Shown here piece after piece: positions 7,420-64,000 of a DNA stretch of 64,000 nt. The notes below the pieces were generated by a model. The model was not told the origin of the DNA and made no database searches. It saw nothing but the letters and a program-made list of their open reading frames with translations. The position numbers and the translations under genes were made by a program. The stretch lies in contig CM077645.1 of assembly GCA_039707465.1 (NCBI GenBank), positions 58,405,850 through 58,469,849 of the forward strand, read 5' to 3'. The DNA is from Rhabdophis nuchalis (taxonomy: Eukaryota > Chordata > Lepidosauria > Squamata > Natricidae). The number at the start of each line of letters is the position of its first letter. The first letter of the stretch is position 1.

Positions 7420-7583
7420 TTCTTTTGCCTTCAATGTTTTGATGACCAAGTCAAGGAGAACGCCTTTCACTTTTGCAAGTTCTAAGAGAATGGGAGATGT
7501 TCCTGAATTAGAATCAACCTGACTGTTTTTATGATATTACAATGAAGTTATATTGATAATACTTAATGGTGATGATTTCATAA
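7420..7583 (-). repeat. Perfect inverted repeat, left arm (164 bp)
   Basis: This segment is the exact reverse complement of 9263-9426, 164 of 164 bases by reading. The arms are separated by 1,679 bp. Read on the minus strand, the arm holds an open frame beginning NSGTSPILLELAKVKGVLLD that continues beyond the arm, past KTLKAKEWG, to a stop near 7355. The protein family is not recognised. No target duplication flanks the pair. Confidence 0.92.
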
Positions 7584-9262: not shown

Positions 9263-9426
9263 TTATGAAATCATCACCATTAAGTATTATCAATATAACT
9301 TCATTGTAATATCATAAAAACAGTCAGGTTGATTCTAATTCAGGAACATCTCCCATTCTCTTAGAACTTGCAAAAGTGAAAGGCGTTCTCCTTGACTTGG
9401 TCATCAAAACATTGAAGGCAAAAGAA
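9263..9426 (+). repeat. Perfect inverted repeat, right arm (164 bp)
   Basis: Exact inverse of 7420-7583. On the plus strand it carries the same frame as the left arm (SPILLELAKVKGVLLDL). Past the arm it continues into a different open stretch, ending at 9717. The two arms therefore share only this block and have unrelated flanks. Perfect identity in apparently non-selected DNA implies a recent inverted duplication, gene conversion or an assembly problem. Confidence 0.92.
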
Positions 9427-10361: not shown

Positions 10362-10366
10362 GTATG

Positions 10367-10613
10367 TGCAGAGTTCTTGGATTCAAGACCAAGCCGGCAT
10401 TCAGACCTGCAGGGAGTGTGTTGATTGGCTGTGACGCTCCTGCCGGCTGGCGGGACAATTGCAGCCATTTCATTGGTTCCCCTGGCTGACAGGCTGTGTA
10501 TAAATAGCTGCCAGCCGGGTATCTGTTCTGTTCTGTTGCTACTTCTCAGCTGTTAATAAATCGTTGCCTGTTAGCACAGCCAGTGTCCTGTCATCCTTCT
10601 GAGGGACATAAAA
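10367..10613 (+). repeat. 5' LTR
   Basis: Begins TGCAGAGTTC and ends ACATAAAA. The end is set by the flanking GTATG duplication at the other LTR, so this LTR does not finish in the usual CA. A TATA box (tataaata, 10499-10506) and a polyadenylation signal (aataaa, 10555-10560) give a plausible U3-R-U5 layout. It differs from the 3' LTR by one indel and three C/T changes. Confidence 0.93.
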
Positions 10614-10614
10614 C

Positions 10615-10626
10615 TGGCGACGAGGA
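10615..10626 (+). promoter_or_regulatory. Primer binding site, tRNA-Ser-like
   Basis: TGGCGACGAGGA lies one base after the 5' LTR. It is complementary to the 3' end of a vertebrate tRNA-Ser(GCU) including CCA (acceptor end cctcgtcg-CCA, from memory). This would prime minus-strand synthesis. Confidence 0.7.
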
Positions 10627-10633
10627 ACACGAA

Positions 10634-11617
10634 ATGAACCCTCTACAGAAGTTAGCTATGGCCACCATTCCAGCATTTGCTGAATTCCGCCCTGACACAG
10701 AATCCTGGGACGCGTTTTTAGAGAGATTTCGTTGTTTTCTTCAGGCACATGATTTGGCTGAAGTGCCAGATGAGAGGAAACGGGGGTTTTTCCTGACGTG
10801 TTGTGGGCCTGGTATGTTCGCCACAGCTCGAGCTTTGGCCGCACCGACCGCTGTAGATGTCATTCCATGGGACGTACTACTGGCTAGACTGAGGGGCCAT
10901 TATTCCCCAACGCCCTCCTGTTTCGCTCGCCGCCACAGTTTCCGTCAATGTTTTCAAAAGGTGGGCGAATCTGTTAATCAATTCCTTGCCTCTTTATGAT
11001 CGGCTGCAATCCATTGTGAGTTTGTGGATCTGGATGAGGCATTGCTGGAGCAATTCATGGCTGGTGTTCGTGACCTACGCCTCCAGCGCCGCCTTTTAGC
11101 CAGATCTGAGCTGACGCTTAAAATAGCTGTGGATGAGGCTAGTGCCTCTGAGATGGCAGAGAAATCCGTTTCTGAACTACACCGTTATCAACGAGTTTCT
11201 GCTGTGCCATCCCTTGCCTCCTCGGTCCATCAACAAGGAATGGACGATGACGGGTTTTCCGAAGTGGAGGAGGACGAGGTTAGCCGCCTCAGGCAATTTG
11301 AAATGAGGCGTTTCCCCTTTAAGAAAGTCTGGAAGGGTTGCCTCAGCTGTGGGGGCGACCATCTGCATTCAAATTGCAAGCACAAATCAGCTGTGTGTCG
11401 CAGATGCAGTAAAAAGGGACATTTAGCTTCTGTGTGCCAAGCAGCTATGCCGAGCAGTCCAAGCCTGAGATCAGATGACGGTGGTTCCTCCAAGGGGTCT
11501 GTCTTTAAAGGTGGCCGTCGCCGCACTGACTGTTTCACTGTCCGGGACAATGCTTCCGAAGTAGTTGATTGGGCTGTTAGCTCAGCCTCCCTCAGTCATG
11601 GGGGGGGGGGGGAATAA
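10634..11617 (+). pseudogene. gag: Gypsy gag, one nonsense codon
   Basis: Encodes the structural polyprotein that packages the retrotransposon RNA. The first ATG after the LTR, at 10634, gives MNPLQKLAMATIPAF. An upstream open stretch in the LTR lacks an ATG. A TGA at 10997-10999 interrupts the frame, which continues unbroken to 11617; the position probably once read CGA (CpG decay). Near the C-terminus are two zinc-knuckle-like motifs: CLSCGGDHLHSNC, with unusual spacing (CX2CX3HX4C), and CRRCSKKGHLASVC, a canonical CX2CX4HX4C. The frame closes after a 13-G run. Confidence 0.88.
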
Positions 11618-12903
11618 GATTAATCTTCGGGTCCACATCGAAGGTCAGCCGTGTACCATGGAGCTGGACACTGAGTCTGCCAAATCGATCATCTCATGAA
11701 ACACCTTGAAGACGCTGCTGCCTGGTCTGGACCGACAACAACTAGAGCCATGTCCTAGTCGTTTGAAAGACTACCAGGGCAACGTTATTCCTATCGTTGG
11801 CTGTGGCCAGTTTAATATTCGTTATGGGGGCTACAAGGGTTGACTGCCCCTCATAGTTGTGGCCAAGCCTTTGGCTTCCCTGATAGGCCTGGAATGGTTT
11901 CAGGCTTTAGGGCTCTCCATTTCAGGCATTCATTCTACTTCAGAGGGGAATGATTTGGATGCCCTCACCCAGGAGTTTGCTGACGTTTTTGATAACTCCC
12001 TAGGTAAATATAAGGGAACACCCATCTCCCTAAATTTAGACCCTAATATTACTCCCATTCAGCTTAAAGCTCGTAGGGTTCCTTTTGCTTTAAGGGAAAA
12101 GGTGGCTGCGGAGATTGACAAACTGCTAGCCCAGGGGATAATTGAACCGGTGGACCACGCTAAGTGGGAGATGCCTATCGTGGTGCCCTTAAAGTCGGAT
12201 GGGTCTGTAAGACTTTGTGCTGACTTTAAGTCAACTTTGAACAAGGCGCTGCAAGCACACCCCTACCCGGTTCCTGTTATACAACACGTTCTACTTTCAT
12301 TGGGCCAAGGGAAAATATTTGCCAAATTAGATTTGGCACAGGCTTATCAACAGTTACCTGTTGATGACGAGACTGCCCTGGCCCAAACTATTGTGACACA
12401 CCGGGGCGCTTTTAAGTGCCGCCGTCTACAGTTTGGGGTTAGCGTGGCCCCGGGGATTTTTCAGAGTATCATGGAGCGGGTGCTCCATGGTATAAAAGGG
12501 GTGATCCCATATTTTGATGATGTCCTCATTTCTGCTTCCACCCGATCAGGACTTGTCACCACTTTGAGATCTGTTTTTCAGAGATTCCGTAAGGCTGGGC
12601 TTAAACTGAAACGCTCAAAATGTAAGTTAGGGGTGCCCTCTGTAGAGTTTCTGGGGTATTTGATTGACTGCCAAGGCATCCATCCCACTCCTTCGAAAGT
12701 GGAGGCGATTACCTTCGCACCCACACCAACCAATAGAGGGGAGCTTCAGGCATTTTTGGGCCTTCTAAATTTCTATTCTTGTTTCATTCCTCATAAGGCG
12801 ACCGTGGCAGAGCCTTTGCACCGTCTGTTGGACGGTTCCATCCATTGGAAATGGACCAGCCGCGAAGCACAAGCATTCGCGGCTGTTAAGAAACTCCTGA
12901 CTT

Positions 12904-13762
12904 GGACTTCCGGTTCCGGCTCCAGCGGCGACGGGCGAGCCTAGGGCTCGCTCGCCGCTTTGTTTCTTTTCCTGCCCCCCCACGGGGGCGAGACACCCCG
13001 TTTTTGGGGGTCTCCCGTAAAGCCAGCTTGCCTGGGTCGTCCTCCCCCAGCGGCAGCTGGGAAGCGACCCTTGTCTTCGGCTTAGGTGGAGGAGGACATG
13101 CTGCGGGGGGTTTCCCCTTCGCCAATGGCGGGCGGCATCATTCTGAAAATATGAAGAGAGCTGGCCATCTGAGTCGGAAGGCTTCCCGGGGCTTCGGCTG
13201 CGAGGGTGAAAGTGAGTGGTTTTAAACATTTTTTTCCCCTGCTCTCAGCCTGGGCTGAAAGAACTTGGAGGGGGGTGTCTGCTTGTTAAACCCCCCCTCG
13301 GACTAAAGCGGCACTTAAGAATGGCTCCTCGCTGCGAGGAAGCGGATATCTTTAATCTGGACTGTTTGAAACAAGGGAAAGTGGTCTGCGGTTTGTCTTT
13401 GAAACAATGTATCTAGGTCTGGCTGATTTGAAACATTTTTTTTTACCACTCTCTCCTTCTGGCTCTGAGTCTGGGCAGTGAAAATGGCTTCTCTTTGTCC
13501 CTGAATGACTATTTTACTTATGGAAAATTTCCAGCGTCTCTTTGTGATTTGGACTCCCTCTGGTTACTGAAGAAGAATTTTTTTTTGGATTTGTGATTTC
13601 TTTTCTGGAGTGCCTTCGTTATTATACTTATTGACTTGGAAAATTGTTTCTCTCTTGGTTCCTGAACTTTACAACCCTGAACTGAACTTTTGGCTCCTGA
13701 CTTGCCTCAACAGCCCCACCCAAAAAACGCCATTTTAGTGGCACTGACTTTAACAGCTAACC
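12904..13762 (+). promoter_or_regulatory. GC-rich 5' UTR of ORF1-only element A
   Basis: The first 300 bases are very GC-rich with many CpGs, then the leader becomes T-rich near 13430-13700. By analogy with L1 it should contain an internal RNA polymerase II promoter. The first roughly 80 bp match the 5' end of copy B closely. Open frames exist on both strands across the CpG-rich part, but the sense one has no ATG. Confidence 0.6.
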
Positions 13763-14599
13763 ATGGCACAAGAATCAGCACTGGCAAGCTTAGAATTAAG
13801 GATGGCCTCTCTTGAATCTGTTATACAAACTTTGGTACAAGAAATCAAGGCCCAGAGGGCAGAAAATATCAATTTTAAAAAGGAATTATTGGACACACGG
13901 AAACAAGTGCTGGAGAACACACAGAAGAATGAAGAACTGGAAGGGGGGCTGGCGGGGGCTAAGGGAGAGATTAAAAATGTTACTAATGAGGTTGTGGAAA
14001 TAAATGGGCATGTGTCTAGGATTGATATGGAAAGGATGACATATTTTTTGAGATTTCAGAATGTTTCTGAGGAAACCGGTGAATGTCTCCCTGAACTCAT
14101 GAGCACAATTATAGCAGACTATTTACATAAACCTAAGGATGAGATCAGGGGGGACATTGACCTAGCCTACAGAATAAACTCTGCATATGCCAGGATAAAT
14201 GAAGTACCCAGAGAGATACATGTTAAATTTGTTAGAAGGTCAACCAGAGAGGAAATCTTGAAAGTGCAAAGAGGAGGTCCGTTAATTTACCAACAAAAGG
14301 AGGTTGCTATCCTAAAGCAGATCCCAAGAAAGATTAGAGAAGCAAGAAGGAAATTTTCCTTCTTGTGCAAAAAATTGTTTGACCACGGGATCTGGTTTAG
14401 GTGGGTGATGCCCGAAGGGATGCTGGTGTTCTGGGAAGGAGGAAGAGTGAGGATTAAAACAGTTGCTGAGGCGGAAGCCTTTTTTAAAAAACATTCCTCT
14501 GTCCTGGGGGAAGATCCAGGGGGGGGCAGGGGGGGCCACAGCCCCGCCCGCTGGGGGCCTGGAAGGAGAGATAGAAGATACAATTGCCAAGAGACTTAG
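13763..14599 (+). CDS. L1-type ORF1 protein, copy A
   Basis: A 278-residue protein of the L1 ORF1 (transposase_22) family: an RNA-binding chaperone that coats element RNA in cytoplasmic particles. The ATG has a Kozak-like context (aaccATGg). Residues 1-90 form a heptad-like coiled coil (FKKELLDTRKQVLENTQKNE). An RRM-like region follows (MERMTYFLRFQNV), then the C-terminal domain (REIHVKFVRRSTREEIL, GMLVFWEGGRVRI). The frame is intact until a G-rich run near 14518-14532. There a 1-base indel relative to copy B shifts the last roughly 25 residues and gives a stop at 14599. In the ancestral frame the stop would be at 14610-14612. No ORF2 follows. Confidence 0.9.
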   Translation: MAQESALASLELRMASLESVIQTLVQEIKAQRAENINFKKELLDTRKQVLENTQKNEELEGGLAGAKGEIKNVTNEVVEINGHVSRIDMERMTYFLRFQNVSEETGECLPELMSTIIADYLHKPKDEIRGDIDLAYRINSAYARINEVPREIHVKFVRRSTREEILKVQRGGPLIYQQKEVAILKQIPRKIREARRKFSFLCKKLFDHGIWFRWVMPEGMLVFWEGGRVRIKTVAEAEAFFKKHSSVLGEDPGGGRGGHSPARWGPGRRDRRYNCQET

Positions 14600-14612
14600 A
14601 TCTAAAAAATAA

Positions 14613-14879
14613 CTTTGCCTTGATTTTTTGAATAATATTGTATAATATAACATGTGCATCTGGATTTTTGTAAATGACTGACAGCATAGAACTGAGAACT
14701 TAGAAATATGTACTTGCTTTTACTTTGTAGTGTATGGAAAATGTTTTTTATTAATGATCTATTTTGATGTCCCGGTAGGGCCGACGACTTTGACGTGAAT
14801 GCTCTCAAAATTTCTTTGTATCACTTACCCTATCCTATTGAAAAACTGTAAAACCAATAAAACTTTTTCAATATAAAAA
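14613..14879 (+). other. 3' UTR of ORF1-only element A
   Basis: Runs directly from the ancestral ORF1 stop to an aataaa signal near 14856 and an A tail. It holds a nine-codon frame (MTDSIELRT, 14672-14701) that is also present at the same place in copy B, possibly the stub of a lost ORF2 start. Confidence 0.75.
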
Positions 14880-16744
14880 AAGAAACTCCTGACTTCAGCT
14901 GCCATTTTGGTTCAGTACAATGAGAGAATACCTCTCATTCTGGCGTGTGATGCATCTCCTTTTGGCATTGGGGCGGTTCTTAGCCACGTATACCCAAATG
15001 GAACGGAAGCGCCAATTGCATTTTACTCCCGCACTTTATCTAAAATGGAACGGAATTACAGTCAATTGGATAAGGAGGCCTTAGCTGCCGTTGCAGGGGT
15101 GAAAAGATTTCATCATTACATATATGGCCGTTCGTTCCGTTTGGTGACAGATCATAAGCCTTTATTGGGAATTATTGCTAGGGATCGTCCTACACCGGAC
15201 ATTTTTCCCCACGGATGTCTCGCTGGGTTGAGTTCCTAGCAGCTTACTCGTATTCCCTGATCTATCGCTCTGGAAAACAAATTGGGCATGCAGACGCCTT
15301 AAGCCGTTACCCATTGCCTGAGCTAGTCCAGGATCCTGTGCCCTCCGCCCCAGTGTTCCTCATCGAGGATTTGCAATTGCCAGTGTCCACAATGGACATT
15401 GCTCACTACTCTTTGAAAGATGCCATTCTTGCCCGGGTCCTGGATTGGGTCCGTAGAGGTTGGCCACCAGGGAGTTTGCCTCCTGATGTCATGCCATACT
15501 TTAGACGAAGGGACGAGTTGTCCGTGCTGCAAGGGTGTCTATTGTGGGGATGCAGAGTTGTCGTTCCTACAGCACTCAGGCGCCTGGTGCTTGTCCATCT
15601 CCATGAGGGCCACCCAAGCATAGTGCGGATGAAAGCTTTGGGCCGCAGTTATGCCTGGTGGCCGGACATGGATAAAGACATCACCACATGGGTGCAACAC
15701 TGTCAGCTTTGCCAGGAAACGAGGCCTGTGGCTCCCGCTGCACCTGTTCGGGAATGGGAGACCCCTAACGCCCCTTGGAGTCGTATTCATATTGATTTCC
15801 TGGGACCAATTGCTGGTCAGACCCTTTTCCTCATAGTAGATGCCCTGTCAAAGTGGGTGGAGCTTTTCCTTATGCAGAACATGACGACAGACAACACTAT
15901 TAGGATTCTCACAAGTTTGTTTGCAACCCATGGCCTACCGGACACGGTGGTATCCGATAATGGGCCACAATTCACATCCCTGAGGATTCAGACCTTCCTT
16001 GCACTGTTAGGTATAAGACATGCGCAAGTGGCGCCATATCATCCTGCTGGAAATGGACTGGCTGAACGGGCCGTTCATTCCGCCAAGGAGGCTTTAAGCC
16101 GCATGGGAGACTTGCCTTGGCATTCCAGGCTAACCACTTATTTATTTACACAGCATACTACCCCGTGCCCTGCCACGGGTAAGTCCCCTGCAGAATTCTT
16201 AATGGGTCGCCGTCTCTGTACAGGTTGCATCCTTCCTACAATGCTACTGCCCTGCTGCAGCCAGATCCCCCAAGGGTTTTTGTCAGGGGGGAGGGGGTTT
16301 ACGCACAAAACTTTTCAGGTGACCCCAAATGGCTTCCGGGCTGGATAACTGATGTAACAGGGCCCTGTTCCTACAGGGTCCAACTCAGTGATGGGCGTCA
16401 GTGGTGGCGGCATGTGAATCAAGTCCGCCGCCGGGTGGTGGATGAAAATCAGAGTCGCCAGTTCATCCCAGTGACTGTGGACTCTCCTGACATCGCCTAC
16501 CGGCAAGAATTCCACCTTCCATCAGTTCCTGACAAAGATGCATCCGGCCCGATGTTGGATGCACATTCACCTGTAGCACCTAGCCTACCAGTGGGGGCGG
16601 AGACTTCCAAGGACATCCAATCACCGATGGAGAACCCGATCAAAGACACTGCTCCTCCTGTTGTGGTGAGCTCTCCTCAACTACGACGCTCACAGCGCAC
16701 GCGCCATTGGCCTGCATATCTACAGGATTACGTGTGCGCAATCC

Positions 16745-16756
16745 AGGGGGAAGGAG
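16745..16756 (+). promoter_or_regulatory. Polypurine tract
   Basis: AGGGGGAAGGAG lies immediately before the TG of the 3' LTR, the expected plus-strand priming site. It fixes the LTR start. Confidence 0.9.
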
Positions 16757-17002
16757 TGCAGAGTTCTTGGATTCAAGACCAGCCGGCATTCAGATCTGCA
16801 GGGAGTGTGTTGATTGGCTGTGATGCTCCTGCCGGCTGGCGGGACAATTGCAGCCATTTCATTGGTTCCCCCGGCTGACAGGCTGTGTATAAATAGCTGC
16901 CAGCCGGGTATCTGTTCTGTTCTGTTGCTACTTCTCAGCTGTTAATAAATCGTTGCCTGTTAGCACAGCCAGTGTCCTGTCATCCTTCTGAGGGACATAA
17001 AA
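16757..17002 (+). repeat. 3' LTR
   Basis: Matches the 5' LTR except for one missing A and three C/T substitutions. TATA box at 16888-16895 and aataaa at 16944-16949. It is followed by the GTATG target duplication. Confidence 0.95.
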
Positions 17003-30658: not shown

Positions 30659-33289
30659 CATTTCATTTCATTTTTTCATTTTATTACATTTATATCCCGC
30701 CCTTCTCCACAGAGGACCCAGGGCGGCGCACAGGAAATTTAAAAAACATACACAATAGAAGATAGACAAATAATTTAAAATATATATTAAATAATCCCCA
30801 ATCCTGTGCTAAAAACCAATTATTAAAAACCCAATTTAAAACTTTTCTAAAAGTCCCCATGGGAGGTTAGGCTAGGCCGGCTTGATGGAAAAAATATGTC
30901 TTTAAACATTTGCGGAAGAGGCGGAGGTCAGTGATGGTCCGGAGTTCAGGGGGTAGGTCGTTCCAAAGGGCAGGGCCCGCCACAGAGAAGGCTCTTCCCC
31001 TGGGTGTCGCCAGTCGGCATTGTCCGGCCGACGGCACCCTGAGAAGGCCCTCTCTGTGGGAGCGGATCGGTCTAAGGGATGTATGGGGCAGGAGACGGTC
31101 TCGCATATAACTAGGCCCCGAGCCATGGAGCGCTTTAAAGATGGTCGTCAGAACCTTGAAGCGCACCCGAAAGACCACAGGAAGCCAATGCAGCTCGCGC
31201 AGGATTGGTGTTATATGGGAGCTTCTGGTGGCTCCCGTAATTACCCGCGCGGCTGCGTTTTGGACTAGCTGTAGCTTTCGAGTGCACCTCAAGGGAAGCC
31301 CCATGTAGAGAGCATTACAGTAGTCGAGACGGGACGTCACGAGAGCTTGAGTGACTGTGCAAAGGGCAGCCCGGTCCAGTAAGGGGCGCAATTGGCGCAT
31401 CAGGCGTACCTGATGAAACGCCCCCCTGGCCACGGCCGTCACATGGTCCTCCAAGGACAGCCGGGAATCCAGGAGGACACCCAAATTGGGCGCCCTCTCC
31501 ACGGGGGCCAGTGTTTCGCCCCCAATGGCCAGAGTTGGAGTAATCTGGCTGAACCGGGGTGCCGGAAACCACAGCCACTCAGTCTTGGCAGGGTTGAGCT
31601 TGAGTTTGTTACCACCCATCCAGATCCGTACGGCTTCCAAACACCGGGACAGCACTTCGGCGGCATCGTTGGGGTGGTCTGGGGTGGATATGTACAGCTG
31701 GGTGTCGTCAGCGTACAGATGGTACTCCACCCCAAAACCACGGATGATCTCACCCAGCGGCTTCATATATGTGTTAAACAGGAGGGGCGAGAGGACTGAC
31801 CCCTGAGGAACCCCACATAAGAGGGGTCTCGAGGTCGACCTCTGCCCTCCCGTCAACACATATTGCGACCGACCAGAGAGGTAGGATGAGAACCACCGCA
31901 AAACGGTGCCTCCCAGCCCCAACCCCCCCAGTCGGTGCAATAGGATACCATGGTCGATGGTATCAAAAGCCGCCGAGAGGTCTAATAGGACTAGGATAGA
32001 GGAATACCCTCTATCCCGCGCCCTCCAGAGATCATCAACCAACGCGACCAATGCCGTCTCGGTACTGTGACCGGGTCGGAAGCCGGACTGGCGCGGGTCT
32101 AGATAATCAACTTCCTCCAGGTGTTGTGGAAACTGTTGGGCTACCACACTCTCAACAACCTTCACCAGAAAGTGAAGGTTGGAGACTGGACGATAGTTCT
32201 CTAGTAAAGCTGGGTCCTGGGACGGCTTCTTGAGGAGGGGCTGCCTCTTTCAAGACGGCAGGCAAGGACCCCTCACTCAAAGATGCGTTGACAATGCCCT
32301 GGAGCCAGCCTCGTGTCGTCTCCCAGGATGCCAGTACAAGCCAGGAGGGACACGGGTCCAATAAACATGTGGTCGCTCTAAGTTTCCTTGACAGCCTGTC
32401 CATATCCTCGGTGGTAACAAAGTCAAACTCCTCCCAAGCAGGAACCTCAAGACTAGCCTCGGACAGTCCCACAGGACCACTGTCGATGGAGGGTAGCTCA
32501 TTCCGAATCCGAGTGATTTTCTCCTGCAGATAAATCCCAAATTCCTCTGCTCGCCCTTGTAGAGGGGCTTCCCGCGGCCTCTGGTGAAGGAGGGAGGGGG
32601 TCACCCCAAACAGGGCGGCAGGGCGGTTATCTGCGGATGCAATTAGGGTGGCACAATACTCACGTTTGGCCACCCTTATCGCCACTAAGTAAGCCCTAAT
32701 ATGGGTTCTCACTAGTGTTCGGTCGGCTTCGGAGCGAGAGGATCTCCATCTGCTCTCTAGGCGTCTCTTGTGGCGTTTCATCCCCCGAAGCTCCTCAGTA
32801 AACCAGGGAGCCTGGGTGATTCGTCGCCGCAAGAGAGGCCGCAAGGGCGCGACTCGGTCCAAGGCCCCCGTGGCCGCACTTAACCATGCGGCCACTAGGT
32901 CCTCAGTCGAGTCGCGGGGCAGGATCACAGGAATTGGCCCAAGCTCCCTCTGGAACCTTTCCGGGTCCATTAGAAGCCTGGGGCGGAACCATCTAGGAGT
33001 GTCCGGTTCCGCCTCCCCGCGGTGAGGTGGAGCGATTGGAAAGTCCAGCCGGAGGAGAGCGTGATCTGTCCATGACAAGGGAGTGATGACTAAGTCCCCT
33101 ATTCCCAGATCGCGACTCCACTGTCCCGAGACAAAGATGAGATCCAGTGTGTTCCCCCCCTCGTGAGTGGGACCTAAAACTACCTGGGTCAGGTCCATGG
33201 CCGTCATGGAGGCCATGAACTCCCGAGCTGCTCCAGAGGCTTCGCCCACCGACGGCAAGTTAAAGTCCCCCATGACTACCAGTCTGGGT
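30659..33289 (-). mobile_element. L2 LINE, 2.6 kb, 5'-truncated in the endonuclease
   Basis: Inserted in the hAT element with a 6-bp repeat GCTCTT at both ends (30653-30658 and 33290-33295). It contains the end of the endonuclease, the full RT and C-terminal region, then a 3' UTR ending tgcgccgccctgggtcctct, gggcgggatataaat and an attt/gaaat tail. The protein is of the L2 clade by LDLSAAFDTIDH, YADDTQLYIS and LQLVQNAAARVITG. It is the most complete of five L2 copies here and well preserved, suggesting moderate age. Confidence 0.92.
30867..33273 (-). pseudogene. L2 ORF2 (endonuclease end, RT), one frameshift
   Basis: Upstream frame 32152-33273 starts MGDFNLPSVGE (GDFN endonuclease motif) and includes NTLDLIFVSG and SWTDHALLRLDF, the last catalytic blocks of the APE-type endonuclease. 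Downstream frame 30867-32165 (432 codons) holds the RT: RQSGFRPGHSTETAL, LDLSAAFDTIDH, GVPQGSVLSPLLFN, YADD at residues 151-154, then LPPELR near the end. The two frames join at about 32240 by a single 1-base-type shift (after VLKEAA). Otherwise open, so inactivation here is minimal apart from 5' truncation. Confidence 0.92.
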
Positions 33290-33337
33290 GCTCTTGCTTA
33301 GCAACCAAAATTTTGGACTCAATTGTGATGATAAATT

Positions 33338-40528: not shown

Positions 40529-40622
40529 AGGAGTCAAAACATGGCTTTGTGGTCTCATGTGGGAAGTATAGGTGAGCATCTATACTTCCCACATGAGACC
40601 ACAAAGCCATGTTTTGACTCCT
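40529..40622. repeat. Perfect hairpin, 43-bp arms, 8-base loop
   Basis: Left arm 40529-40571 (starts aggagtcaaaacatggct) and right arm 40580-40622 are exact inverses, with loop gtgagcat. Perfect complementarity suggests a recent origin, for example template switching during replication. No target duplication, and not part of a recognised transposon. Confidence 0.95.
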
Positions 40623-41001
40623 TTCAGAAAGCCAGGAGAGTGGGGAGCCTGCCTTACCTCCACAGAGCAGGTGGCAGTGGCAGAAAAGGCTTCCTAGATA
40701 TTGCCAGTTGTAGTTCTTTTTTTTTTTTTTATATTGAAAAAGTTTTATTGGTTTTACATTTTTTAACAGGGTAAGGTAATGGTTACAAAGAAATTTTGAG
40801 AGCATTCACGTCAGAGTCATCGGACCTTCCGAGACCTCAAAATACACATTAAAAAAGTTAACATAGAAAACATTTTCCATACCACTACAAGTTGAAAGCA
40901 AGTACATTTACCTAAATTCTCCCTTCCATGCTGTCAGACATTTACAAAAAGTCCGGATAGAAATATTATGCAAAATTGTTCAGGAAAAAATCAAGGCAAA
41001 G

Positions 41002-41850
41002 TTATTTTTTTGATCTAAGTCTTTTGGCTATTGTATCTTCTTTCTCTCCTCCCTGGCCCCCCGCAGGCGGAGCCTTGGCCCCCTCCGTCCCCCCTGGATC
41101 TTCCCCCAGGGCAGAGGAATGTTTTTTAAGAAAGGCTTCCGCCTCAGCAACTGTTTTAATCCTCACTCTTCCTCCTTCCCAGAACACCAGCATCCCTTCA
41201 GGTGTCATCCACTTGAACCAAATCCCGTGATCAAACAAGGTTTTAGACAAGAAGGAAAATTTCCTTCTTGAATCTCTAATTTTTCTAGGGATCTGCTTCA
41301 AGATAGTGACCGTTTCTCGATGATAAGTTAAAGGTTTCTCTCTCTGCGCTTTCAGGATTTCCTCTCTGGTTGACCTTCTAACAAATTTCACATGTATCTC
41401 TCTAGGCACTTCATTCATCCTGGCATATGCAGAGTTAATTCTATAGGCTAGGTCAATGTCCCCCCTGATCTCATCCTTAGGTTTTTGTAAATAGTCTGCT
41501 AAAATTGTACTCATAAGATCAGGCAGGCATTCACCAGAATCCTCAAGAACATTCTGAAATCTCAAAAAATATGTCATTCTTTCCATATCTATCCTAGACA
41601 CACGCCCATTTATTTCCCCCACCTCATTAGAAACATTTTTAATCTCTCCCTTAGCCCCCTCCAACCCTCCTTCCAATTCTTCATTCTTCTGTGTATTCTC
41701 CAACACTTGCTTCCGGGTATCCAATAGTTCCTTTTTGAAAGTACTATTTTCAGCCCTCTGGGCCTTTATTTCTGATATCAAAGTCTGCATAGAGGTTTCA
41801 AGAGAAGCCATCCTTTGTTCCAAATTTACAAGTGCTGCTTCTTGTGCCAT
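41002..41850 (-). CDS. L1-type ORF1 protein, copy B
   Basis: An intact 282-residue L1 ORF1-family protein starting MAQEAALVNLEQRM. Residues 1-90 are coiled-coil-like, then an RRM-like region (MERMTYFLRFQNVLED) and the C-terminal domain (EIHVKFVRRSTREEIL, GMLVFWEGGRVRIKT). The tail is GGTEGAKAPPAGG then IAKRLRSKK. About 84% of aligned residues match copy A by hand count, the most variable blocks being residues 165-185 and the N-terminus. It has no stop or frameshift, unlike copy A, whose last 25 residues are shifted. It would act as an RNA chaperone in cytoplasmic particles; reverse transcriptase must be supplied in trans. Confidence 0.92.
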   Translation of the reverse strand: MAQEAALVNLEQRMASLETSMQTLISEIKAQRAENSTFKKELLDTRKQVLENTQKNEELEGGLEGAKGEIKNVSNEVGEINGRVSRIDMERMTYFLRFQNVLEDSGECLPDLMSTILADYLQKPKDEIRGDIDLAYRINSAYARMNEVPREIHVKFVRRSTREEILKAQREKPLTYHRETVTILKQIPRKIRDSRRKFSFLSKTLFDHGIWFKWMTPEGMLVFWEGGRVRIKTVAEAEAFLKKHSSALGEDPGGTEGAKAPPAGGQGGEKEDTIAKRLRSKK

Positions 41851-42717
41851 GGTTAAAAGTTAGAGTCACTGCCACCAAGATGGCGTTTTCCGGGTGGGGC
41901 TGGTGGGGCAGATCAGGAGCTCAGTTCAGTTCAGGGCCGTGAAGTTGCAAACAATTCAGAAACCAAAAGAGACACAATTTCCCAAGTCAGCAAATAGTAA
42001 TAACGAAGGTATTCCAAAGAAGAAATCACAAATCCATCAAGAAATTTTTTTTCCAAAAATCCAGAGAGAGTCCTGCTTTCAAAGAGACGCTGGAAAATTT
42101 TCCTTAGTTGAAATAATCAGGCAGGGACAAAAAGAAGCCACTTCCACCGCCCATCTCAGCCAGAGGGAGAGAGTAGCAAAAAAAAGAATTTTTTTTAAAC
42201 TCAGCCAGACCTAGAAACAATGTTGCAAAAAGTCACATTCCACTTTCCCTTGTTAGAGACCGTCCGGAGTGAAAGTTTCCGCTTTCCCTTTGCAGAGAAG
42301 CCATTTTAACGTGCCGCTTAAATCCGAGGGGCTTTTTTTTAAAAATAAACACCCCCCTCCCAGTCCGTTCAGTCTGGCTGGCAGCAGGAAAAAAAAGTTT
42401 TTTAAAGACTCACTCTCTCCTCGCAGCTGAAGCCTCGGGAGTCCTTCTGACTGAGCCGATCAGCCCTCCTCATATTTGTGAATGGCGCCGTCTTCCTTGG
42501 GCGAAGGGAAAACCCCCCGCTAGCATGTTCTCCCTCACCTGAGCCGCGCCGGGAGCCGCTTCCTCCACCGCCGTGGGGGGCGCGCCCCCCGACGAGCCGG
42601 CCCTACGGGAGACCCTCAAACAAGAGGAGTCTCGCCCCCGTTGGGGGGCAGAAGAAGAAACAAAGCGGCGAGCGAGCGCTAGGCTCGCCCGTCGCCGCAG
42701 GAGCCGGAACCGGAAGC
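41851..42717 (-). promoter_or_regulatory. GC-rich 5' UTR of ORF1-only element B
   Basis: CpG-rich at the 5' end (42480-42717), T-rich on the minus strand towards ORF1, as in copy A. A plus-strand (antisense) frame at 42478-42735 is open through the CpG-rich block and shares APVGGQ, KKQSGERALGSPVAAGAGTG with the antisense frame of copy A. Confidence 0.6.
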
Positions 42718-42739
42718 CCAGTTGTAGTTCTTTAACAGT

Positions 42740-48851: not shown

Positions 48852-48959
48852 AACTAGCTATATCCGGCCACGCGTTGCTGTGGCCCAGTCTGGTTAAATG
48901 GCCAACCAATCTGTGTGTAGATCTACACCTGCACACACACACAACCACCATATAAGCCC

Positions 48960-50340
<1,381 letters not shown>

Positions 50341-50348
50341 CTTATTTC

Positions 50349-51839
50349 AATTCAATTCAATTTATTCAATTTATTCAATTTATATCCCGCCCTTCTCCGA
50401 AAGGACCCAGGGCGGCGCACAGGAATTTAAAACAATATACAAAATAGTACCAATTATAATTTAAAAAACTTATTAAATGACAAAACCTGCGCTAAAACCA
50501 GATTAAATCCCCCATTTAAATTGTAAACTATCCCTCCCCTCCTCCCTGGAACCCCCTAAAAGCCAAATTAAGAATTTTATTCAAACACCCCTAGAACTGC
50601 GACCCGCCCACCTCTCTTGATACAGAATCCCTCATCAAGGTGGGCCCTCGTTGACGCGGAGGGCCATACCTGCGAGTAGGGGGACTCCCGCAGTAGAAAA
50701 GGTCTGCCTTAGAGTACTTCATGGTGAATGTCATAAATATGATATATATAAATATGTATAAATATATATAAAATATAAGGTCAGAGGAGTTGTTAGACAG
50801 GGCATTAAAATTCTAGATGTTATTGAATATTAAAATAGATGTTAAAATATGTATAGTACAAGTTAAACTCAGGAGACGTCTAGACCGGCTCTAAAAAGTT
50901 CATAAATAGTTCATAAATTCATAAAAATCATGCATGGTTCAAAGATAGTTAATCATGGTTCATAAATAGTTAGTTTGTCATCGAAGGTGGGAGAGTTAGT
51001 TCATATAAATATATCAGACTGGGGGTAGAGGGTGGCTTTGGCCTTCCAGTTGTAAATTAGTCCCGGCCTGTAGTCCTCAAGGACTCCTCCAGTCCCACAA
51101 TACCAGGAGTTTTAAGGGCCTCAGCTGAAGAGTTCTAATAGCTGAGGCCAGTTTTTCTCGGCCTGGAGCCTCCACTGCCCACCTTTGTCCCCGGTGGCAT
51201 CTCCTTCGGCCCCAACGCCTCCAGCGCTCCTGGTATCTTTCGGCCTGCCAGGCCCAGATCTCCTTAGGCCCGGCCCGGCCCAGCCAGGCCTTGCGGCCTC
51301 GATGTTACCCTGCCGGCCATGCCAGGCCAGTTGGTCCTCAGCTAGCCAGGTCCGGCTCTGTCTGGCCTCCCCAGGTCTTTACAGTCGCTGGCCTCTGATG
51401 TCCGCTCCAGCGCTGGTCACTTCTCCGCCCACTGGCCGTCCCGGCTCCGCTCGTCAGCTCATACCGGCACCGCTCTTCTCCTCCTCTCCTCCATGCCGCG
51501 CGGCTCCACTCCACTCTGTTCCTCCATTCCTCTCCTTCTCTCCTCTCTTCCGCGCCACGCGCTGCTCCACTCAAGCCTCGGAGCAGCGCGGCGTTTTGGA
51601 GCCTCCCCGGCGTTTTGGAGCCTCCGGTCAGCTTCCCTCCGATGGCCCATGCAGAGCCGCCGGATCACCCTGGAAGCTCGTCCTGGCCTCAAAAGGCAGC
51701 CAGGGTGAGCGTCTCGCTGGGCCTGGCCCTAAAAGTTGGCAAACGGGCCAGGCGACATGCCCTAGCCGCCCACAACTCCCGCGGCCCTCATAGCGCTCGG
51801 TGGCAGACCGCCATCTTCGCGCATGCGCAGTACTTATTA
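50349..51839 (-). mobile_element. Internally deleted L2-type LINE (5' region joined to 3' UTR)
   Basis: On the minus strand it starts with a CpG-rich segment including gcgcatgcgcgaagatggcg near 51835, like a LINE 5' promoter region. It ends with the L2 3' UTR (tgcgccgccctgggtcc, gagaagggcgggatataaat) and an aattc/aattg tail. No RT or endonuclease lies between. CTTATTTC occurs at both outer edges (50341-50348, 51840-51847), a possible target duplication. A 43-codon ATG frame (50591-50722, minus) is of unknown meaning. The assignment of the GC-rich part to L2 is inferred from the shared edges. Confidence 0.55.
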
Positions 51840-61665: not shown

Positions 61666-61877
61666 GTCACTGATTAGTCATTTTAGTCAATATGTATCTC
61701 AAGAACAATAAATTTTAGCATGCATGTCATCCATATATGCATATATAAATACAGCAATTAAGGAAATGAGAATGGCATTCACAGTGATGATGACGATGAT
61801 GATGATTCTTCAAAGGCTACCAATTTGAACACAAGTGTAAGGTGGCTTACAATTAAAACTCAATAAAGAGAAACAGT
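61666..61877. other. Short GAT-rich gap
   Basis: A (GATGAT)n-like run at about 61785-61806. Nothing else. Confidence 0.6.
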
Positions 61878-61879
61878 TA

Positions 61880-62315
61880 CCGTATTTTTTGGAGTATAAG
61901 ACGCACCGGAGTATAAGACGCACCCAGGTTTTGAAGAGGCAATTTTTTAAAAGTAGGTAGGTAGATAGAGGGATAGAGAGGGAGAGAAAGAGAGAGAAAT
62001 ACAGTAGGTAGGTAGGGGGAGAGAGAGAGTAGGTAGGTAGGTAGGTAGGTAGGTAGGTAGGTAGGTAGGTAGGTAGAGGGATAGAGAGACACAGAGAGAG
62101 AGAAATACAGTAGGTAGGTAAATAGGGAGAGATAGTGTGTGTAGATAGATAAGTAGGTAGAGGGATAGAGAGAGAGAAATAGAGAGAGAGAGAGAGAAAT
62201 ACAATAGATAGATAGGGAGAGAGAGTAGGTAGATAGGTAGATAGAGGGGAGAGAGAGAAATACAGTAGTTAGGTAGGGAGAGAGAGTGTGTAGATAGGTA
62301 GGTAGGTAGAGGGAT

Positions 62316-62362
<47 letters not shown>

Positions 62363-62996
62363 CAATCGATAGGTAGGGGGAGAGAGAGAGTAGGTAGGTA
62401 GGTAGATGTTTCCAGGTGTATTTACCCATGTGCTGGAGAAGGAAATCACTGGCCACCTTTGGAACAAATCTTTGTTTTTGCAGGCGCAGTACTTGACCAA
62501 CGTAATTCTCATCAATCACTCTAATTAAACAGCTTTCCGAAAGGGGGGGGGACCCTTTTTGCACTGTGCAAACCTCCCCCAAACGGCCCATTTTTCACAA
62601 AAATGGGCCCATTTTTTTTCAAATAAAACGCATGAACAGCCTGGGGGGGGGGCTTGCAGAGTGCTCCTGGGGGACCCAAAATGAGGAAAAATGCCCCATT
62701 TTTTTCATGAAAACAGGCCATTTTTTGGTCAAAGAATAGCATGCATAGCCTTATGGAGGCTTATAGAGTGCTGCTGGGGGCTGGGAGGGAAAACGCCTTG
62801 TTTTTTGCTCATTTCTTCCCTCCCCAGCCCCCAGGAGCTCTCTGGAAGCCTCCATAAGGGTATGCACGTGGCCATTTTGGTGAAGGGGCGGGGTTTCAGG
62901 AGGCAAAAAATGCTGTATTCAATGTATAAGACACACCCAGATTTTCAGCCTCTTTTTAGAGGAAAAAAGATGTGTCTTATACTCCGAAAAATATGG
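61880..62996. mobile_element. Nonautonomous DNA transposon with tataagacgc termini (1.1 kb)
   Basis: Left end CCGTATTTTTTGGAGTATAA and right end (inverse) CCATATTTTTCGGAGTATAA, flanked by TA on both sides (61878-61879, 62997-62998). A second tataagacgcacccagg block inside the left end recurs near the right end (tataagacacacccag) as a subterminal direct repeat. The interior is non-coding: a TAGG-type array (61953-62410), then ccatttttcacaaaaatggg and G-rich units with internal inverse repeats. Superfamily not certain; the TA flanks would fit Tc1/mariner. Confidence 0.65.
61953..62410 (-). repeat. GTAG/TAGG-based tandem array
   Basis: Minus-strand counterpart of the array at 48960-50340: ggtaggtagg runs alternate with gatagagggatagagag and agagaaatacagtagg. 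It lies inside the DNA transposon at 61880. The YLPT-rich open frames are artefacts. Confidence 0.95.
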
Positions 62997-63287: not shown

Positions 63288-64000
63288 ATAATAATAATAA
63301 TAATAATTTTATTTTTAAACCGCACCCTCTCCCCACAGGGACCCGGGGCGGTGCACAGGCAGAATAAAAACAGTCAAAAAATACATACATTTCATAAAAA
63401 ACAATTAAACCAACCCTGTGCTAAAAATTCGCTAAAAATGTGCTACCCCATTAAAAAACCCCAAAGACAGAGAGACTATCCTAGGCCGGCCAGACAGAAG
63501 AAGTGTGTTTTTAGCTTGAGACGGAAGGAGCGGAGGTCAGTGGTCATCCTGATATCGGGGGGAAGGTCGTTCCAGAGGGCCGGGCCCACCACAGAGAGAG
63601 CCCTTCCCCTGGGAGTCGCCCGCTGACAGAGTCTAGTGGACGGCACCCAGAGAAGTCCCTCTCTGTGGGAGCGGATCGGCCGTGAGGATGTATGGGGCAG
63701 GATCCGATCCCGCAGATAGCTAGGTCCCGAGCCATGGAGCACTTTGAAGATGATAACTAACACCTTGAAGCGCACCCGGAAGACGACAGGTAGCCAGTGC
63801 AGCTCGCGCAAGAGCGGTGTTATGTGGGTCGACCTAGTGGTCCCCATAATTGCTCGCGCGGCTGCATTCTAGACTAGCTGAAGCCTCCGGGTGCACCTCA
63901 AGGGAAGCCCCATGTAGAGAGAGTTGCAATAGTCCAGTCGGGATGTCACGAGAGCATGAGTGACTGTGCGAAGGGCGTCCCGATCCAATAGGGGGCGCAA
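63288..64000 (-). mobile_element. L2 LINE, 3' part, running off the window
   Basis: Tail (AAT)n at 63288-63311, then cgcaccctctccccacaggg and cccggggcggtgcacaggca, then the ORF2 C-terminus continuing past the window end. Confidence 0.9.
63476..64000 (-). pseudogene. L2 ORF2 C-terminus, with a stop
   Basis: Minus-strand frame 63476-63847 includes HITPLLRELHWLPVVFRVRF, FKVLHGSGPSYLRDRI and ALWNDLPPDIR. Upstream, ALVTSRLDYCNSLYMGLPL and RLQLV are in frame but the next codon is TAG (ctagtctag near 63873) in place of the Q found in the copy at 30867. So this copy is inactive. It is close to the other L2 copy in sequence. Confidence 0.88.

Follow-up and report, generated by a model that had tools for sequence, protein, structure and literature searches.

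Copies A and B, two retrotransposon insertions in a 64-kb stretch of DNA (the window), very probably represent two young families of an L1-type lineage that has open reading frame 1 (ORF1) and no ORF2, includes further divergent branches and is presumably mobilised by an autonomous L1. The first-pass annotation had read these two copies as a propagating nonautonomous lineage and not as two random deletions, and the genome supports that view. Searches of the assembly containing the window (G000, 1.92 Gb in 348 contigs) gave at first look 7276 candidates for copy A and 5422 for copy B, and the best 40 for each query, A and B included, were scored. Thirty-nine of the 40 A-type places are whole or nearly whole and lack ORF2; in the fortieth the 3′ untranslated region (UTR) is split by about 366 bp, an insert too small for ORF2. 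All 40 B-type places are essentially whole, 99–100% identical and likewise without ORF2. Both the age and the diversity of the lineage exceed what had been proposed.

Both copies lie at the positions first assigned to them. Copy A occupies 12904-14879 on the plus strand, and on each side stands its target site duplication (TSD), the 16-bp AAGAAACTCCTGACTT, at 12888..12903 (with TT just before it) and at 14880..14895. The 5′ UTR (12904..13762, 859 bp) falls from 69% G+C over its first 150 bp to 33%, and carries a YY1-like GCCATTTT about 30 bp ahead of ORF1. ORF1 itself (13763..14612) has a predicted coiled coil, RRM and C-terminal domain, as judged from the fold of the homologous B ORF1, and is abutted by the 3′ UTR (14613..14879), with AATAAA and an A-tail and no ORF2. 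A single additional G within a G-run near the end of this ORF1 shifts the last codons, such that the shifted frame stops at 14599 and the other at 14610-14612. Copy B runs on the minus strand from 42717 down to about 40720, between 16-bp TSDs of a different sequence, AAAGAACTACAACTGG, at 42718..42733 (5′, again with TT just before) and 40704..40719 (3′). Its 5′ UTR (41851..42717) leads into an ORF1 of 282 codons (41002..41850) that is entirely open, as had been claimed, and the ORF1 stop again runs straight into a 3′ UTR with AATAAA and poly(A) (40720..41001). A long palindrome-like inverted repeat adjoins copy B at about 40550-40625. An identity of 16 bases did not arise in any of 2813 random 50-mer pairs drawn from the window as a control for the TSDs.

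The two copies align end to end at 81% identity (BLASTN), which bears out their common layout, and 40 residue differences over the 248 codons ahead of the frameshift in A agree with the protein identity of about 84% given earlier. The earlier description of a GC-rich 5′ UTR of about 860 bp holds for the length; the richness is confined to roughly the first 300 bases (69–72% G+C in the first 150, 51% overall). Kimura two-parameter distances between A and B are 0.254 in the 5′ UTR, 0.145 in ORF1 and 0.188 in the 3′ UTR. Copy A sits within the pol region of a long terminal repeat (LTR) retrotransposon, and it is a young insertion, since the LTRs of this host element differ by only three substitutions and one gap in 248 columns; nearly all of the divergence between A and B therefore predates the insertion of A. 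The interrupted element spans 10366-17002 on the plus strand, has RVT_1, H2C2 and rve domains, and its LTRs are 98% identical.

Sequences were read for all 40 A-type and for 30 of the 40 B-type scored places. The start of the 5′ UTR is preserved, 38 of the 40 A-type places beginning at base 1-5, and an open ORF1 was read in 30 of the 40 A-type copies and in all 30 of the B-type. As these are the top-scoring copies, both the openness of ORF1 and the youth are overstated relative to the complete families. Mean divergence among A-type copies is 0.023 in the 5′ UTR, 0.0125 in ORF1 and 0.015 in the 3′ UTR, and among B-type copies 0.0084, 0.0030 and 0.0022, respectively. The A-type copies fall into subfamilies marked by shared variants. 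A TSD of at least 12 bp was found at 59 of the 70 copies (31 of 40 A-type and 28 of 30 B-type), no two being identical within one family. The L1 endonuclease has the consensus TT/AAAA, and 42 of the 59 duplications are preceded by TT or TC; the insertion sites are thus consistent in sequence with cleavage by an L1-like endonuclease.

Older relatives were found in the flanks of the A-type and B-type copies that had been fetched. A sister of the B-type family (L063 with L072) has ORF1 passing into the 3′ UTR, in a stretch 89.9% identical to B, and is broken up by a B copy and by an apparent CR1 piece. L062 is one old copy in which ORF1 is 57% identical and a homologous 3′ UTR follows immediately, the whole being disturbed by a small inverted ORF1 piece. 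A third type, named after locus L042, shows 65% identity across 159 codons. Its 5′ part was scored at 40 places, and the downstream part was read in five, namely L042 and four others picked at 97% to 93% identity; those four pass from ORF1 to a homologous 3′ UTR and an A-rich tail, some with a stop or frameshifts of their own, and L042 itself is fused to an ORF2 piece. Besides the A-type and B-type families, the ORF1-only lineage comprises no fewer than two additional branches in this genome, both more divergent. The ORF1–3′ UTR junction that the first-pass annotation had asked to be counted recurs in A-type, B-type and these more distant copies. Among the copies read, relatives with ORF2 ahead of this 3′ UTR are not the majority, nor are A and B alone, with differing breakpoints, in lacking it.

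The ORF1 product appears to be of the L1 ORF1p type, mainly on the strength of its predicted fold. Human L1 ORF1p accounts for all ten Foldseek matches to the predicted B structure at E below 0.001, and the top six rows for this fold in VIA-align are also ORF1p. The sequence gives weak support: B scores 13.9 bits against the Pfam L1 ORF1 model Transposase_22, under the cut-off of 22.4, and A is unlisted, which is why the name rests mainly on the fold. Pfam returned nothing above threshold for ORF1 and only sub-threshold coiled-coil matches, and the phmmer match to human ORF1p in the PDB (E 0.64) indicates a distant relation.

The dN/dS analysis suggested for ORF1 at the outset points to purifying selection. 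Between A and B the ratio is 0.20-0.29 by three methods, and between branches 0.10-0.44, with a silent distance to L062 above 1. Within the A-type family, after two damaged copies had been excluded and with variants in 2-3 copies left untabulated, replacement and silent changes stand at 5:8 for shared variants and 39:20 for singletons, where the neutral ratio is about 2.5. Purifying selection both within and across branches argues that ORF1 was maintained while the lineage had no ORF2.

How such an element might move can be outlined as follows. The 5′ UTR would carry the promoter; a YY1-like AANATGGC occurs twice in the 5′ UTR of A and of B against 0.10-0.15 times in shuffled sequences, for a motif picked after the sequence had been seen. 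The mRNA would code only for the RNA-binding ORF1p, which would attach to its own RNA in cis. The complex of ORF1p and RNA would then acquire ORF2p, with its endonuclease and reverse transcriptase, in trans from an autonomous L1 resident in that genome, and target-primed reverse transcription would copy the RNA at T-rich sites. This scheme, with ORF1p acting in cis and ORF2p in trans, is consistent with the insertion sites, the tails and the L042 fusion. In that fusion (L042:135-4979) an ORF1-only 5′ half is joined to a 3′ half made of L1 ORF2: the sequence tracks its relatives as far as roughly codon 185 of ORF1, where L1 ORF2 takes over, with a stretch of 159 aa that matches human ORF2p 836-975 (E 4.6e-5) and, beyond a stop, another of 271 aa matching 1046-1237 (E 6.2e-12). 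Its 3′ UTR differs from the one in A and B, and close to the fusion junction a B copy has inserted. L042 was considered as proof of an ORF2-bearing parent within the family, and this was dropped, since its four near relatives lack ORF2. For the same reason the simplest reading is a template switch, in which reverse transcription began on L1 RNA and then moved to ORF1-only RNA; this hints at mobilisation by L1, with both RNAs in one complex. A separate L1 ORF2 piece, matching human ORF2p 801-892, directly adjoins an A-type copy (L017:2337-2750, minus strand), so an ORF2-bearing L1 exists or existed in this genome.

Other origins for the short copies have to be considered. They might be recurrent by-products of an ORF2-bearing L1, formed each time by the same splice or deletion and never sources themselves. 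A conserved splice donor and acceptor would also give a fixed junction in two families, selection on the ORF2-bearing parent would preserve ORF1, fragments of L1 ORF2 are present in the genome (L042, L017), and the A and B searches favour ORF2-less matches. However, none of the copies read combines this ORF1 and 3′ UTR with an ORF2, and the junction is common to A, B, L063/L072, the L042 type and L062, even where protein identity drops to 57%, so that parents spliced recurrently would have to keep the splice sites in every branch. The A-type subfamilies with their shared variants are, moreover, what short source copies would give, and we consider recurrent by-products improbable. In mammals L1TD1 provides an example of a domesticated ORF1, and processed copies of such a host gene, with no transposon involved, would account for ORF1 as the sole coding region, for the poly(A) and TSDs, and for selection on ORF1. 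Yet it would take several very active parent genes to produce, at the same time, two families each made up of near-identical whole copies, with their own 5′ ends and 0.25 apart in the 5′ UTR, plus the further branches, and the 5′ UTR is kept from base 1-5 in nearly every A-type place; we think this origin very unlikely. From A and B by themselves one could not have excluded that each is an ordinary L1 copy with a chance internal deletion and that no propagating family stands behind them, but the whole, ORF2-less state of 39 A-type and 40 B-type places refutes this idea, to which we attach practically no probability.

Against a lineage of ORF1-only elements mobilised by L1, several observations have nevertheless to be set. 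The A and B queries place whole ORF2-less matches first and so bias the sample away from ORF2-bearing kin; only the four L042-type copies and the two relatives met in flanks are free of this bias. A complete helper L1 was not met in the copies and flanks read, where ORF2 occurs only as fragments and no search aimed at a full L1 was completed, and for this reason mobilisation by L1 is a step that we infer. The L042 fusion may have been made by a later rearrangement, its 3′ end and overall TSD lying outside the sequence read. Eleven of the 70 copies have no 12-bp TSD, and the TT or TC bias at the 42 sites is partly built in, as the A-tail sets the position at which the TSD is called. ETS- and SP1-like motifs in the 5′ UTRs show no excess over shuffles. 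The predicted ORF1 model has a pTM of 0.39 and a full-length rmsd of about 9 Å. As to selection, dN/dS between A and B reaches 0.42 (YN00) once the comparison is restricted to the RRM and C-terminal part; the 5:8 ratio comes from a total of just 13 shared variants, polarised by the majority state instead of on a tree; and in the B-type family, with variants too few for a selection test, the 3′ UTR varies less than ORF1 (mean p 0.0022 and 0.0030).

That the host is a squamate, as first suggested, is borne out by the CR1 protein of the window, since all of its best matches (P0014 to P0062) that carry a name are squamate; among 13 relatives of ORF1, the five that are named belong to Sceloporus (four) and Ophiophagus (one). 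The CR1/jockey-like long interspersed element (LINE) fragments with reverse transcriptase lie at 30867-33297 and 63476-63868, both on the minus strand, and their nearest named proteins are squamate. Elsewhere in the window there is a perfect 164-bp inverted repeat (7420-7583 and 9263-9426, with 1.7 kb between the arms), and long CTAC/CTTT-type short-repeat arrays in opposite orientations, with chance open frames, occupy 48898-50430 and 61810-62594. No relatives of the element were found in viral contigs (17 stretches matched), in a genome-contig collection (355 stretches) or in phage DNA.

The nearest parallel named by the first-pass annotation was mammalian HAL1. As described in the literature, HAL1 has ORF1 only, poly(A) and TSDs, depends on the reverse transcriptase and endonuclease of full L1 (PMC5753468, PMC5322556) and arose several times independently in mammals (PMC5753468). 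The squamate elements share this layout and mode of working: they code for an L1 ORF1p by predicted fold, lack ORF2 across the family, end in poly(A) between TSDs, and presumably obtain their enzymes from a full L1. The parallel is one of layout and mode of working and need not mean common descent with mammalian HAL1; the host differs, a single genome holds several branches, of which two are young and have a mostly open ORF1, and no parent L1 was met in the copies and flanks read. Going by published descriptions of HAL1, we class them as a probably independent squamate lineage. No ORF1-only L1 of reptiles turned up in the portions of full-text literature searched. Anolis carolinensis is described as having 20 L1 families (PMC5389967), and the squamate elements resemble autonomous lizard L1 in their L1-type ORF1 and L1-like insertion sites, and differ in lacking ORF2.

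According to one study, ORF1p is not needed to mobilise nonautonomous elements in trans (PMC5322556); ORF1 is nevertheless conserved here, in an element that must take ORF2p in trans. We appear to have a recent and active vertebrate LINE that has given up its enzyme gene and retained its RNA-binding protein. The young, mostly intact copies make the cis role of ORF1p directly testable, and the L042 fusion offers a lead to the helper. A further comparison is with HeT-A of Drosophila telomeres, a non-LTR element that codes for Gag/ORF1 without enzymes and probably takes its reverse transcriptase from TART or TAHRE (PMC5537684). The squamate elements likewise code for an ORF1 protein without enzymes of their own, but HeT-A forms head-to-tail arrays at chromosome ends, whereas the squamate copies are found in the interior of contigs (C1 to C9 and others), flanked on both sides by a TSD. 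We see an even chance that an old, diversifying ORF1-only L1 lineage has existed beside autonomous L1 in squamates long enough for silent sites between branches to become saturated, its ORF1p selected throughout for winning ORF2p in cis. If so, squamates would harbour a still-active vertebrate counterpart of the two-part LINE system of HeT-A with TAHRE or TART, rather than a series of transient HAL1-type offshoots.
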